Below, one piece after another: positions 4,565 through 20,978 of a stretch of DNA of 36,527 nucleotides; the stretch's first letter is position 1; each line of letters begins with the position of its first letter. Made by a program: the position numbers and the translations under genes. The notes under the pieces were generated by a model that saw only the letters and a program-made list of their open reading frames with translations, was not told the DNA's origin and ran no database searches. Origin of the DNA: a virus; the IMG/VR virus record IMGVR_UViG_3300042197_001650, positions 1 through 36,527 of that record. One strand, written 5' to 3'.

Positions 4565-6484
4565 ATGTCACAACAGAATATCAGGGAATATAATTTTAGA
4601 AAATGGTTTTTAAAACCTTCTGGCCAAAATTTAGACATAAATTTGGCTTCAGATGAGCAAAACTATAATGAGGAAGTTGTATTTTCACCTTATCTAATTG
4701 CTGAAAATGATGGTAATAGATTACCAATTAGTTTTGATTTAAATAATTCAGGTTCATCCCAATTATATGTTTTAAATTATGGACTATATAATTCAGCAAA
4801 TACTCTTGTATCACTCAATTATTATAACCCAAATAATGACAATTTGGATATGTTTACCGCATCAACTCTATGTGATATTGGATTAACAGGAATTGATAAT
4901 GGTTTAGTAACAGAAATGACAGGTGAAACAATTTCTTTTACTATGGGATTGTTAGACGACTCAAACAAATTTGATAGATATTCTTTTGACAGAAGATTTA
5001 AAATGTTCCAAGTTACAGGATATACAAATCCTCCAAATCAAAGATTTAGTGGGAATACCGCATCAACAATTTATGAAATTGTTTCAAAAACAAATAGCAA
5101 AATTGGGGCATATAATCAATTATATGGTGGATTTTATCAAGGGTTTTTTAAACTTTTTGGATATGATTATGAAGTTTTTCCAACAAGAACCAATAAAGGT
5201 TGGTCTGTTGAAATGATTTTGAGACCAAGAAAAAACGATGAGTTTTTTCCTACCTCCTCTCAAACAACTTTAAATCTTACGTATTCTTCAAACAATAATA
5301 CATTTTTTTATTTTGGAGTAAGAGGTGAAAATAAATTTTACCACCACGCATCAGGTTCACCCGAAAGTGACTCTGGTTATACAAGAGTCACACAAAATCT
5401 AAATGAATGCCTTAAAACTTGTTCGTGTTCAGATACTGGTGTCACAAATTCAAGATGTATTGAAGTTTACAATCCATTAGAATATACAATTGAACATAAC
5501 ATAGATTGTGGATGTGGATGTTCAGAAAATTCTGTATTAAACCCCGACAAAAACCCGCTTTATGATTCAATGTCAAATGCTTTATCTGTTAGATTTTCCG
5601 GTGACCCATCAAACCCAAAAATATGTGTTAAGGTATTAAAATTAACAGGGGATTGTGTTATGACTGGAACAACGCCTATTACAGGGATTACATATCAAAC
5701 GGGTTATACAATAACAGAATATTGTTCTAATAAACAAATTTACGAATATTGTGCAATTAACGGACCAAATTATTTGGAATCAGACCATTGGTCTTTAATT
5801 AATTGTGTTTGGGAAAGAAATACATATTTTGACACTTGTGATTTATACTACAAAGGAGGTCTTGGATTAATAACAGATTTTAAATATGTTGATAGTTTAT
5901 CAAATAATACAGTAAACTTAATTGAGCCTCCCGTTACCCATACAGGTAGTCTGGCACCAGACCAAGTTGAAATTGTTAATCTTAACGAAAGATGGTTGAT
6001 TGAAAAATCAGATAGGCTTGGAACATTAAAAATATATGTTAACGGAAGATTATTTTATGTTATAAATGGATTTGAAGAAATTATTCCAAGAGGGTTAAAT
6101 ACGGAAAAAGAAAAACAGCTTGGGGTTTCTTTTAACATATCTTGGGGAGGAGGAACTCAAGGATTAAGGGAAAGTTTAACATTTACAGGTTGTCCTGAAA
6201 GTTTAACGGGTTTAATTTACCAACAAGACCCTGAAGTTATGCCAAATCAAACACTATCAGGAACAAGCTTATCTGCGCTCACAACAAACATATTAATTGA
6301 GCCTAATTTTGGTGGAAGTTTTGATGGGGCAATAAGTCAATTTAGAATGTATGTTAAACCATTAAACGCTTCTGAAATTTTACACAATTTTAATTTATTA
6401 AAAAATAAATTTTTAATTTTTGACCCCCAATGCCCAAATTGTGATAATAATATACTAAACGATATAGAATACGAATTTTTATAA
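4565..6484 (+). CDS. LamG/concanavalin A-like virion structural protein
   Basis: This 639-residue protein is beta-rich and has no signal peptide. Residues about 205-260 (GWSVEMILRPRKNDEFF, then FFYFGVRGENKFY) match the opening strands of a laminin-G/ConA-like lectin fold. TLKIYVNGRLFYVING (about 487-502) and FDGAISQFRMY near the C-terminus match its closing strands. Between them is an insertion with two tight Cys clusters (residues 282-298 and 315-319), plausible for metal or disulfide use. A CPNC pair lies near the C-terminus. The stop overlaps the next start as TAATG, coupling it to the fibre gene at 6484. A tail-fibre, baseplate-wedge or capsid-decorating role is likely; which one is not clear. 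Confidence 0.72.
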   Translation: MSQQNIREYNFRKWFLKPSGQNLDINLASDEQNYNEEVVFSPYLIAENDGNRLPISFDLNNSGSSQLYVLNYGLYNSANTLVSLNYYNPNNDNLDMFTASTLCDIGLTGIDNGLVTEMTGETISFTMGLLDDSNKFDRYSFDRRFKMFQVTGYTNPPNQRFSGNTASTIYEIVSKTNSKIGAYNQLYGGFYQGFFKLFGYDYEVFPTRTNKGWSVEMILRPRKNDEFFPTSSQTTLNLTYSSNNNTFFYFGVRGENKFYHHASGSPESDSGYTRVTQNLNECLKTCSCSDTGVTNSRCIEVYNPLEYTIEHNIDCGCGCSENSVLNPDKNPLYDSMSNALSVRFSGDPSNPKICVKVLKLTGDCVMTGTTPITGITYQTGYTITEYCSNKQIYEYCAINGPNYLESDHWSLINCVWERNTYFDTCDLYYKGGLGLITDFKYVDSLSNNTVNLIEPPVTHTGSLAPDQVEIVNLNERWLIEKSDRLGTLKIYVNGRLFYVINGFEEIIPRGLNTEKEKQLGVSFNISWGGGTQGLRESLTFTGCPESLTGLIYQQDPEVMPNQTLSGTSLSALTTNILIEPNFGGSFDGAISQFRMYVKPLNASEILHNFNLLKNKFLIFDPQCPNCDNNILNDIEYEFL

Positions 6485-18627: not shown

Positions 18628-20978
18628 TGGAATTTTATATTAAGAAAAACTCCACTTTGCCCATATTAAAGATGGAGGTTATTAAAGACGGTCGGAGTGA
18701 TTTTAATCTAAATTCATTTTTAAGTGGAAATACAACTTTTTTAATTTCACTTTATGACAAATCAAACGACAGATTTTTATTCGCATCAAAACAATGTTAT
18801 ATAACATCCGAATTTTCTGAATTTGAGGGAAAGGATTTATATTATTTAAATTATCAATTTACAAACAAGGACACATTAAGGGTTGGAAGATATGAACTTC
18901 AAATTTCAATTCCATCAGAACAAGGTGTTATATTATTGCCCCTTCAAGATAAATTTTATGTTAATGTTGTTGATTCTTTTGCTGGTGAAAATATAAAATA
19001 CATAAATAACTATGATTCAGATTTAAGTTGTTGCTCAAATCAACCCCCATCTGAACTTGGAGTTATTACGCTTCAATCTTATTTTAATAGCGGGTCATTG
19101 GTAATTGATTATATTTTATCTTCAAACAAAACATATAATAATAATATATCTGTTGAATTTACTAACACAATTGAAGTTTTTGAAGGAAATCCTTTTTTAA
19201 TAACAACAGGTGTTACAATAAATTCTGGAAATTTATCAGGATTAACTCAAATTACAATATCAGATTTTAATTATAATAATTTAAGACAAATTCCTGTTTT
19301 TCAAAATGTTAAAATATTTGGAGCTCCGCAAGGTTCAATTTTATTTTTAAATACCGAATCGTTTTTTGAACCACCAATTTCCCCATCTCCAACCCCTACT
19401 CCAAGTATAACTCCAACAAATACTATTACCCCTACAATAACACCTACTGCGACAGAAGCTCCAAATATAACTCCAACTCCGACTCCAAGTATAAGTCCAA
19501 CAAATACAATTACACCTACAATAACACCTACCTCAACAGAAGCTCCAAATATAACTCCAACTCCAACTCCAACTATAACTCCGACTGAATCGGAAACACC
19601 TACAACCACACCAACCACAACACCTACAAATACGGTTACTTCAACTTTAACTCCGACTAATACTCCAACTAATACTGTAACTAAAACAAATACACCGACT
19701 AATAGTGTGACTCCAACTATAACTCCAACCAATTTATCTTTTTGTTTTGACTATACTTTATCTGGTATTCAATTTACAGACACTAAAATAACAGACGGAA
19801 ATTATAATGGTTATCCTTATTATAACCTTACAAATGGTGTTGTTTGGAATGGTGGTAGTGGTTTAACTTATTTTTGGTATTGGACAGATGTTCTTGGTGA
19901 TACTGGAACAACTTATGGTTCACTCTATAACGGATTTAAACCAACTCCTGATAGTCAATCTTACGTTTGGAACTCTGGTGTTACAAGTCAAATGAACTCA
20001 TCATTAGTTGGGGTATGCTCAACTCCAACTCCTACCCCAACAAATACAATTACCCCTACAATAACACCTACTGCTACAGAAACTCCAAATATAACTCCAA
20101 CTGAAACTGTAACACCAACACCTTCAATTACTGAGACTCCTACACAAACGCCTACCATAACACCTACTGAATCGGAAACCCCAACTCCTACTCCAACAGA
20201 GTCAGAGACACCTACCCCAACCCCTACAATTACTGAAACTCCAACAAATACTCCAACCTTTACCGTTACTCCTACACCAAGTTTGACCACTTCTTCAGGT
20301 GGTATAGTTACTGAAAATTTATTTATGAAGTTAGATGCTTCTAACTATACTTCAGGTACTTGGAATGATGAGACAGCGAACGGTAACAATGCGACAATAA
20401 ATGGGGCTACTTGGTCTTCAGATAATGGAGGCATATTTGATTTTGATGGTGTTAATGATACAATAAGTATTCCTCACGTTTCTTCACTAAGTTTAAGTAC
20501 AACGGTGCAAAAAACTATACAAGTTTGGGTTAAATTTGATACTCTACCAGCGGTTAGTACACAAGTTCCAGTATTTGGTAAATTATCATCCTCATTTGGA
20601 TTCGACGGATATTGGTCAGGGTTATTTTCAGATTCGGGAATTATTAGATGTGTTACAAATGGAACATCGACTCAAAAAACATCCGATTCAACTTCAGCAA
20701 TCACAATAAATAATTGGTATTTATTTACATTTATTTCACAAATCACGTCTACGGCAAATACAACTAAAATATATATAAATGAAACAGAATATATTTCTTC
20801 ATCTCATGGTTCTGACACATATAATGAATCTAATACACTGTATTTAGGATTTATAGGTTCGGGTATTGGTTCTTTATATTTAAATGGTAAAATAGGTGCT
20901 TGTTATTTCTATACTAGTGGTTTAACATCAAGCCAAGTATCACAAAATTATAATAACACTAAATCAAAATATTTATAA
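18627..20978 (+). CDS. Fibre: BppU-like base, T/P-rich linkers, LamG-like tip
   Basis: A 783-residue mosaic. Residues 1-118 repeat the BppU-like domain of the preceding gene (MEFYIKKNSTLPILKMEV; DTLRVGRYELQ; LLPLQDKFYVNV). Residues about 140-245 are a second beta domain. Mucin-like linkers fill 252-369 and 466-555. Between them is a small domain (370-465; FCFDYTLSGIQF, YFWYWTDV). Residues about 560-783 are a LamG_3/ConA-like lectin: FMKLDAS, IFDFDGVNDTISIP, QVWVKFDT and KIYINETEY. LamG tips bind carbohydrate. This is likely a receptor-binding fibre made with the 18259 protein. Confidence 0.8.
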   Translation: MEFYIKKNSTLPILKMEVIKDGRSDFNLNSFLSGNTTFLISLYDKSNDRFLFASKQCYITSEFSEFEGKDLYYLNYQFTNKDTLRVGRYELQISIPSEQGVILLPLQDKFYVNVVDSFAGENIKYINNYDSDLSCCSNQPPSELGVITLQSYFNSGSLVIDYILSSNKTYNNNISVEFTNTIEVFEGNPFLITTGVTINSGNLSGLTQITISDFNYNNLRQIPVFQNVKIFGAPQGSILFLNTESFFEPPISPSPTPTPSITPTNTITPTITPTATEAPNITPTPTPSISPTNTITPTITPTSTEAPNITPTPTPTITPTESETPTTTPTTTPTNTVTSTLTPTNTPTNTVTKTNTPTNSVTPTITPTNLSFCFDYTLSGIQFTDTKITDGNYNGYPYYNLTNGVVWNGGSGLTYFWYWTDVLGDTGTTYGSLYNGFKPTPDSQSYVWNSGVTSQMNSSLVGVCSTPTPTPTNTITPTITPTATETPNITPTETVTPTPSITETPTQTPTITPTESETPTPTPTESETPTPTPTITETPTNTPTFTVTPTPSLTTSSGGIVTENLFMKLDASNYTSGTWNDETANGNNATINGATWSSDNGGIFDFDGVNDTISIPHVSSLSLSTTVQKTIQVWVKFDTLPAVSTQVPVFGKLSSSFGFDGYWSGLFSDSGIIRCVTNGTSTQKTSDSTSAITINNWYLFTFISQITSTANTTKIYINETEYISSSHGSDTYNESNTLYLGFIGSGIGSLYLNGKIGACYFYTSGLTSSQVSQNYNNTKSKYL
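19380..19733 (+). repeat. T/P-rich linker A of the LamG fibre
   Basis: Encodes about 118 residues of PTPTPS/ITPTNT type. The PTESETPT units resemble those of the 6484 fibre at residue and DNA level. Confidence 0.88.
19401..19568 (+). repeat. 84-bp tandem repeat, two diverged copies
   Basis: 19401-19484 and 19485-19568 encode the same 28-residue unit (PSITPTNTITPTITPT, then EAPNITPT) with a few changes. A partial third copy lies in linker B around 20035-20100. Confidence 0.85.
20022..20291 (+). repeat. T/P-rich linker B of the LamG fibre
   Basis: Encodes about 90 residues of TPTPT/ESETPT type and joins the middle domain to the LamG tip. Confidence 0.88.

Follow-up and report, generated by a model that had tools for sequence, protein, structure and literature searches.

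The subject of this study was a gene island (6484..20978) in a virus record of 36.5 kb (IMG/VR record IMGVR_UViG_3300042197_001650, positions 1 to 36,527; this whole stretch is called the window below), in which a run of glycosyltransferase (GT) and methyltransferase genes lies between two genes for fiber proteins that carry long, Thr- and Pro-rich (T/P) linkers. The island is probably a phage-borne, cytosolic cassette for mucin-type O-glycosylation, with the T/P linkers of the phage's own virion proteins as its acceptors. This reading draws on the anatomy of the island, on a cassette with conserved ends and a variable middle, on the recurrence of its first GT together with such linkers in other phages, beside VgrG proteins and beside secreted-type proteins, and on the fold of that enzyme.

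Fiber Proteins and Their Linkers

Fiber 1 (6484..9945, + strand; 1153 amino acids, aa) alternates T/P linkers with DUF285 domains (PF03382, E 1.1e-67), while fiber 2 (18627..20978, +; 783 aa) consists of an N-terminal domain, two T/P linkers, and a C-terminal virion-structural, LamG-like domain (phrog_8510, E 1.8e-20). With a T/P run defined as at least 60% T+P in 30 aa, three linkers were placed in fiber 1 (6658..6996, 113 aa; 7780..7914, 45 aa; 8833..9036, 68 aa) and two in fiber 2 (19359..19670, 104 aa; 20007..20306, 100 aa), all on the + strand. Together they comprise 430 aa (T 39%, P 24%, S 7%), and all five are long, low-complexity segments rich in Thr, Ser, and Pro, the feature of mucin-type proteins. 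An earlier note on this DNA, made from the letters alone, had counted five linkers of about 410 residues in two fiber genes; this held at the set threshold, and both genes are long open frames with family matches. When the fibers were shuffled 1000 times using their own letters, any T/P run arose in only 3 (fiber 1) and 23 (fiber 2) of the shuffles, so that the linkers are not expected from composition alone, and since each T/P run uses several Thr codons and several Pro codons, they are not a simple DNA repeat either. The motif D(S/T)(A/I/L/V/M/T), which we take to be the general O-glycosylation motif of Bacteroidota, occurs nine times in the two fibers but never within a T/P run, and generic Bacteroidota O-glycosylation of the linkers is accordingly not favored.

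Tail sheaths can also bear such segments. A T/P insert at about residues 275-330 was present in 37 of 152 sheath open reading frames (ORFs) of relatives (longer than 300 aa, near-copies counted), for example at loci L124-L126, L128, L181, and L200; the sheath of the window is without it.

Gene Content of the Cassette

The first gene (10062..11306, +) specifies a PF11397 GT (E 7.8e-70; 236.5 bits against a gathering cut-off of 21, in two stretches) with an invariant D92-S93-H94, and is the proposed initiator on linker Thr. The interior, all on the + strand, comprises a putative S-adenosylmethionine-dependent methyltransferase, proposed from a reading of the sequence (11313..11870; homologues in 5 loci; no match in Pfam, PHROG, or NCBIfam), a PLOD-like GT (12011..12712; PF25342, GT_PLOD, E 2.1e-7), a GT10-type GT of the fucosyltransferase family (12709..13692; PF00852, GT10 C-term, E 5.4e-11), a presumed GT (13692..14405; no Pfam or NCBIfam match; homologues in 50 loci, one of them in the cassette of phage XacN1), and a Rhamnosyl O-methyltransferase/CmcI-like methyltransferase (14408..15037; PF04989, RMNT_CmcI, E 1.5e-7). 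The last gene (15048..17435, +; 795 aa) joins an N-terminal methyltransferase (phrog_3382, E 2.2e-35) to an HtrL/YibB domain (PF09612, E 8.7e-18) and a second GT-A-like domain; 84 of 124 relatives of this protein are only 553-568 aa long. The island also gave a match to GT family phrog_24687 (E 8.6e-172), and NCBIfam added little for the interior genes.

The coupling of these genes, as proposed earlier, was borne out: gaps from 12011 to 17435 are only -4 to +10 bp, with larger ones of 116 bp before 10062 and 140 bp before 12011. The enzyme names of the earlier note fared unevenly. Profiles agreed with PF11397, PLOD-like, GT10, the CmcI-type and phrog_3382 methyltransferases, and HtrL, but not with the 'GT-A enzyme' at 13692-14405 or the methyltransferase at 11313-11870. 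A 'GT2-like' domain had been named in the C-terminal part of the last gene; no Pfam match was found there, but the structure model has a second GT-A-like domain.

Conserved Ends and Variable Middle

Relatives were gathered by GT, by tail sheath, and by DNA polymerase, the last two being independent of the GT and the linkers, and each search comprised the best 80 of 170-203 matches. For the cassette survey, 113 loci with a full-length GT were reduced to 79 non-identical GTs, of which 70 were followed by 9 kb or more of sequence. A protein with HtrL and a second GT domain closes the cassette in 64 of these 70 loci, and between the two ends there were 28 gene orders with 0 to 10 genes, a count in which near-copies remain and unknown genes are lumped. 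Among the six loci without the last gene downstream, the cassette fills the fetched stretch in three (L005, L020, L023), the HtrL+GT gene lies immediately upstream of the GT in L082, and L060 and L229 are without it. It follows that PF11397 and HtrL-GT form the core, while it is the GT10, PLOD-like, and methyltransferase genes that change. The earlier description of the glycan as fucosylated and O-methylated therefore fails as a property of the system; fucose and O-methyl groups would be at most a trait of this one cassette, where the specificity of the GT10 enzyme is predicted.

The GT is roughly as conserved as the DNA polymerase, with 67-77% identity to the window protein among 13 relatives chosen to be diverse, compared with 68-87% for the kept polymerases. 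D92-S93-H94 was invariant in all 16 rows of each of two alignments.

Co-Occurrence of the Glycosyltransferase and T/P Linkers in Viruses

Within the lineage, PF11397 was found in 37 of the 44 polymerase-anchored records that were scanned from 80 (mostly longer ones, chosen by hand). The seven others break off upstream of PolB, at distances of 0 to 12.2 kb (six of them within 6.4 kb), and in the record that extends furthest (L170/G006, 12.2 kb) the fetched part starts inside a cassette-type gene. The pattern TPTPTPT occurred in 34 of the 37 PF11397-bearing records, and the other three (G002, G007, G011) have relaxed T/P runs; the backward pattern, used as a control, gave 2 matches across all 44 records. 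As both GT and linkers are nearly fixed in this lineage, their co-occurrence there cannot by itself show a link.

Among 50,697 GenBank phage records, the GT was detected at E <= 1e-5 in just three, XacN1, CM1, and RAS14 (45-48% identity), and all three contain TPTPTPT. The pattern was absent from 17 comparison phages without the GT, namely relatives by polymerase or sheath plus two cyanophages that matched HtrL. In XacN1 the order is GT, a NodU-type carbamoyltransferase, HtrL, a presumed GT, and HtrL+GT, and after another 3.2 kb comes a large protein that bears T/P segments; the Stenotrophomonas phage RAS14 has the same order minus the presumed GT, and its large T/P-bearing protein is 4.3 kb on (of these two jumbo phages, the carbamoyltransferase was profile-scanned in XacN1 alone). 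The three XacN1 regions that were read contain at least nine T/P-rich proteins, and glycoproteins are reported in this phage (PMC5852040).

In the GT tree, the XacN1, CM1, and RAS14 enzymes group with those of Burkholderiales and other Pseudomonadota, and the window-type enzymes with those of Saprospiraceae and other Bacteroidota. Forcing the seven phage GTs into one clade was rejected (p-AU 1.8e-5, for a group picked after the tree was seen). The GT is paired with T/P or S/T-P segments in phage groups that do not form one GT clade.

When virus records were sampled by linker, PF11397 was present in 12 of 47 tested records with the T/P pattern (of 80 listed) and in none of 34 tested records with the reversed pattern (of 80 listed; Fisher p 9e-4). 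Not all of the 12 are independent, as at least one (G038) is itself a member of the window's lineage. The broader idea that T/P linkers generally imply GTs was dropped, as GT2 (PF00535) was found in 10 of 35 T/P-positive, PF11397-negative records and in 7 of 34 controls, with no clear difference.

Two phage-like contigs filed under bacterial metagenome-assembled genomes (L276, L292) have PF11397 together with another large gene and, nearby, proteins with T/P segments; one of these proteins, in L276, has a crAss-like muzzle C-terminal domain. The two contigs may represent an additional phage lineage that has the system.

Bacterial Homologues

A scan of bacterial genomes found 169 homologues, of which 80 were analyzed. 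Saprospiraceae, Gemmatimonadota, and Halieaceae are among the groups in which the GT adjoins an HtrL+GT gene, and in three Myxococcota loci GT, HtrL, and GT are fused as one ORF. An S/T-P run was present in 17 of the 80 loci; in a comparison with control stretches of similar length, it was seen in 9 of the 28 GT loci whose genomes were searched but in 0 of 40 controls, which came from 24 of those 28 genomes (p 1.4e-4). Along the GT tree the T/P label switches no fewer than 12 times, which indicates that the neighborhood of GT and T/P protein has been made or lost often. In Saprospiraceae locus L267, an S/T-P repeat protein has a twin-arginine-like leader, as read from its sequence, and a secretion tail, and is comparable to a protein of Jiulongibacter sediminis. 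In the latter species (L274:7942-15145), this T/P-rich protein has a PF11397 gene on each side, and a carbamoyltransferase and HtrL+GT come next, as in XacN1.

VgrG, the spike protein of the type VI secretion system (T6SS), offered a natural control. Eleven Burkholderiales genomes carry the GT near VgrG (L286, L293-L295, L298-L301, L305, L307, L317), and in the three loci that were read VgrG is followed by a small PAAR-like ORF (where one was seen), then by an Rhs-like protein and the GT. All 11 GT-side VgrG proteins have an S/T-P tail (short in L626), while none of the 23 other VgrG proteins in the same search with a visible C-terminus had one. These 23 came from 26 places; of the remaining three, two were cut at contig ends (L646, L663), and L647/L659 had no row. 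The tail repeat unit varies by species, and includes (TP)n, (ETPD)n, (PPSEE)n, (PPPTE)n, (STPEP)n, (AASDEEP)n, and others. Such unlike units, with Ser/Thr and Pro in common, are more readily explained by an acceptor rule than by the common descent of one repeat.

These neighborhoods bear on the possibility that the GTs hypermodify phage DNA bases, for which their position beside the polymerase could speak: PolB adjoins fiber 2 in the window, and DNA-hypermodifying phage GTs are reported (Pyle 2024, known to us through citation). DNA is unlikely to be the acceptor, given the homologues that lie near VgrG and secreted-type proteins, and Tet_JBP was found in 0 of 31 long relatives, a weak argument given that no positive control gave a signal. 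Overall, we consider DNA modification extremely improbable.

Decoration of its own fibers by the phage, as the earlier note proposed, is well supported by these comparisons as a prediction: the pairing occurs in separate phage groups, in one of which a cassette-bearing member has reported glycoproteins, and again beside VgrG and secreted-type proteins.

Enzyme Models and Proposed Mechanism

A model of the PF11397 enzyme (predicted local distance difference test, pLDDT, 85) was compared with solved structures, and the first 29 match rows were all polypeptide N-acetylgalactosamine (GalNAc) transferases (Z 21.0-18.3, 260-287 residues, root-mean-square deviation, rmsd, 3.5-3.9), followed by SpsA (Z 17.2). 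The top match had Z 21.0 over 276 residues with rmsd 3.6. Identity over aligned residues was 11-14%, a sequence search against PDB chains gave no match, so that these structures came from fold comparison alone, and the C-terminal part (~330-414) was unmatched by most rows. D92-S93-H94 presumably corresponds to the D-X-H metal motif of GalNAc-transferases, and would then share its role. The HtrL-GT model (pLDDT 85, predicted template modeling score 0.60) has two GT-A-like domains, for which the best fold matches were LH3, chondroitin polymerase, LARGE1, ColGalT1, and others, with low query TM-scores (0.19-0.29).

PF11397 is taken here to cover GT60, the family of the Skp1 (hydroxyproline) N-acetylglucosamine (GlcNAc) transferase. 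In protists, mucin-type O-glycans are initiated by GT60 polypeptide GlcNAc-transferases, and the enzymes of the Skp1 pathway are soluble proteins of the cytosol (PMC8724618). This family background, together with the abundance of Pro in linkers and tails, raises the possibility of a Skp1-like route, in which linker Pro would be hydroxylated and the hydroxyproline then glycosylated by the PF11397 enzyme; Gnt1, a GT60 enzyme, requires the hydroxylase (PMC6939170). The 2OG-Fe(II) oxygenase PF13640 was found in only one of 31 long relatives, a count that covers phage records alone, many of them fragments. The hydroxyproline route is accordingly not favored and appears very unlikely. The sole oxygenase domains in these 31 relatives are two at 288908-291681 of G045, the record of L021.

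For glycosylation of linker Thr, we infer the acceptor residue, the sugars, the order of action, and the benefit as follows. In the infected cell, the PF11397 GT-A enzyme would place an N-acetylhexosamine on linker Thr and some Ser, with GlcNAc likelier than GalNAc. Enzymes of the variable interior would then lengthen the glycan and methyltransferases cap it, and the HtrL plus GT tandem enzyme would add the next or closing sugars. Fibers, and in some relatives the tail sheath, would assemble into virions bearing dense O-glycan brushes, which may make the linkers stiffer and, at the tail surface, provide shielding or diversity.

Contrary Evidence and Alternative Targets

A number of observations weigh against the proposed modification of the linkers. 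The glycans are predicted, and none has yet been observed on any linker. XacN1, CM1, and RAS14 are one lineage, so their pairing of GT and linkers counts once, and the 11 VgrG genomes are related and do not represent 11 independent origins. In the accessible text on XacN1, its glycoproteins are not identified, microscopy saw no tail fibers, and no tail-fiber homologues were found (PMC5852040). Of the 43 GT loci with enough flanking sequence on either side, three contain no T/P ORF, and 63 of the 80 bacterial GT loci, some of them short, have no S/T-P run. Lastly, PF11397 is missing from 35 of the 47 virus records sampled for T/P, with no clear enrichment of GT2 in them, which means that such linkers do not need the system. 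Linkers without any transferase had been named earlier as a refuting case; this case is partly realized, in that linkers without PF11397 do occur in these sampled records, but not in records of the lineage that reach far enough upstream.

The many records with T/P linkers but no PF11397 would suit a different division of labor, in which the cassette glycosylates mainly folded domains of virion proteins, sheath, or capsid, and the linkers are merely flexible spacers. Mycobacteriophages are reported, in sources known second-hand and in part, to glycosylate capsid and tail-tube proteins. That S/T-P tails on VgrG were seen only next to the GT, and that GT and linkers are paired in separate groups, makes this explanation quite unlikely.

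A target outside the virion was also considered, namely that late in infection the cassette remodels the lipopolysaccharide (LPS) or capsule of the host, which might block superinfection or re-adsorption, its place beside the fibers reflecting exchange of host-interaction genes. Islands of GT and methyltransferase genes next to fibers suit host-range modules, and HtrL is named in papers on the lipooligosaccharide outer-core locus of Acinetobacter baumannii. Some of the cassette could accordingly work on the LPS of the host, which is a further point against a purely virion-directed role. However, homologues lie next to VgrG spikes and to secreted-type proteins with S/T-P runs, and in its fold the first enzyme comes closest to transferases that act on polypeptides. 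Pfam and PHROG scans of the cassette revealed neither a flippase nor a polymerase, and its enzymes have no strongly hydrophobic stretch (top 19-aa mean 1.53). Remodeling of host glycans is, on this evidence, unlikely.

Neighboring Genes and Phage Type

The window is from a large, aquatic-type, contractile-tailed, T4-group-like phage, with PHROG matches to a tail sheath, DNA helicase, and DNA polymerase; its sheath and polymerase have distant GenBank matches. The names UvsW for the helicase and tail tube for 35956-36444 are our assumptions from the sequences. To the left of fiber 1 is a protein with a weak Laminin_G_3-like C-terminus (4565..6484, +; related ORFs in 41 loci). A small protein (18259..18627, +) just before fiber 2 is related to the N-terminal domain of that fiber, and both queries find 170 ORFs in 126 loci. 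The cassette run is parted from fiber 2 by an ORF on the opposite strand (17432..18052, -), presumably HNH-like and profile-related to pieces at 26113-26831, which is probably an insertion and outside the glycosylation system.

Elsewhere in the window, the UvsW-like helicase (26982-29873) is split by a long internal stretch, probably an intein, and its residues 135-549 gave PHROG matches to terminase, primase, and helicase-loader families; the corresponding ORF is 586-606 aa in 9 of 10 relatives listed. An ORF at 25395-26102 has no PHROG match, is found near UvsW in relatives with varying length, and resembles, we presume, superoxide dismutase. A further GT (3-1115, -; phrog_7162) lies outside the island, at the same position in several relatives.

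The phage may belong to the moraphages, which are large aquatic T4-group phages with mostly Bacteroidota hosts predicted, and which share with the window a tail sheath, gp19, UvsW, and PolB (PMC12619734). Four of their core orthogroups are putative GTs, to which that paper assigns no definite acceptor.

Relation to Known Systems

The GT60/PF11397 polypeptide alpha-GlcNAc-transferases (Skp1 Gnt1, and the mucin-type enzymes of Dictyostelium and T. cruzi) resemble the window enzyme in their PF11397 match and in being soluble. The mucin-type branch acts on a Ser/Thr-rich mucin domain, like the proposed linkers, and further sugars follow step by step; in the Skp1 pathway a single bifunctional protein attaches two of them. 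The window enzyme differs in being viral/prokaryotic, with predicted activity and with phage fibers or VgrG tails as proposed acceptors, and, unlike the Skp1 pathway, its relatives rarely carry a prolyl-hydroxylase-type domain (1 of 31). The animal GT27 polypeptide GalNAc-transferases, which initiate mucin-type O-glycosylation, are the closest solved fold and act on mucin peptides, but the low identity and the mostly unmatched C-terminal part set them apart. The cassette of the Xanthomonas jumbo phage XacN1 has the same first and last genes, a NodU-type carbamoyltransferase inside, T/P-linker proteins, and reported glycoproteins; it differs in the position of its GT in another part of the tree, and in that its paper, in the text available, reports no tail fibers and leaves the linkers unmentioned.

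In work by Freeman from 2023, known to us second-hand, mycobacteriophage-encoded GTs reportedly decorate virion proteins and shield them from antibodies; those targets are capsid and tail-tube subunits and not T/P fiber linkers. In the serine-rich repeat adhesins, GtfA/GtfB start with GlcNAc in the cytosol on low-complexity Ser/Thr segments, and variable GTs follow. That system works alike, but has, we presume, another initiator, and serves Gram-positive adhesins.

Bacterial initiators of O-glycans on mucin-like T/P stretches are, to our knowledge, hardly described, and in partial coverage of the literature on PF11397, phage virion O-glycans, T/P linkers, and VgrG glycosylation or C-terminal extensions, no description of the pairing of GT and linkers was found. 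In its widest form, the proposal is that PF11397 enzymes, often with HtrL/GT partners, are a general prokaryotic cytosolic system for mucin-type O-glycosylation of S/T-P segments in phage fibers and sheaths, T6SS VgrG spikes, and twin-arginine-like secreted proteins, that phages took it up at least twice, and that its variable interior provides a changeable glycan coat for the tail; we regard the case for and against this generalization as evenly balanced.

Phage virion glycosylation is known from few examples, and the present comparison offers a testable enzyme-acceptor pair that recurs in large phages of two GT lineages, at T6SS spikes, and with secreted-type proteins. If the proposal is true, it would give one function to the common but little-noticed T/P linkers and a role to PF11397 genes, and would provide a prokaryotic source of mucin-type initiators for glycoengineering. 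The tail surface of these phages would then be a changeable glycan coat, and the pairing may represent a little-noticed sugar-coating system for phage tails and bacterial secretion spikes.

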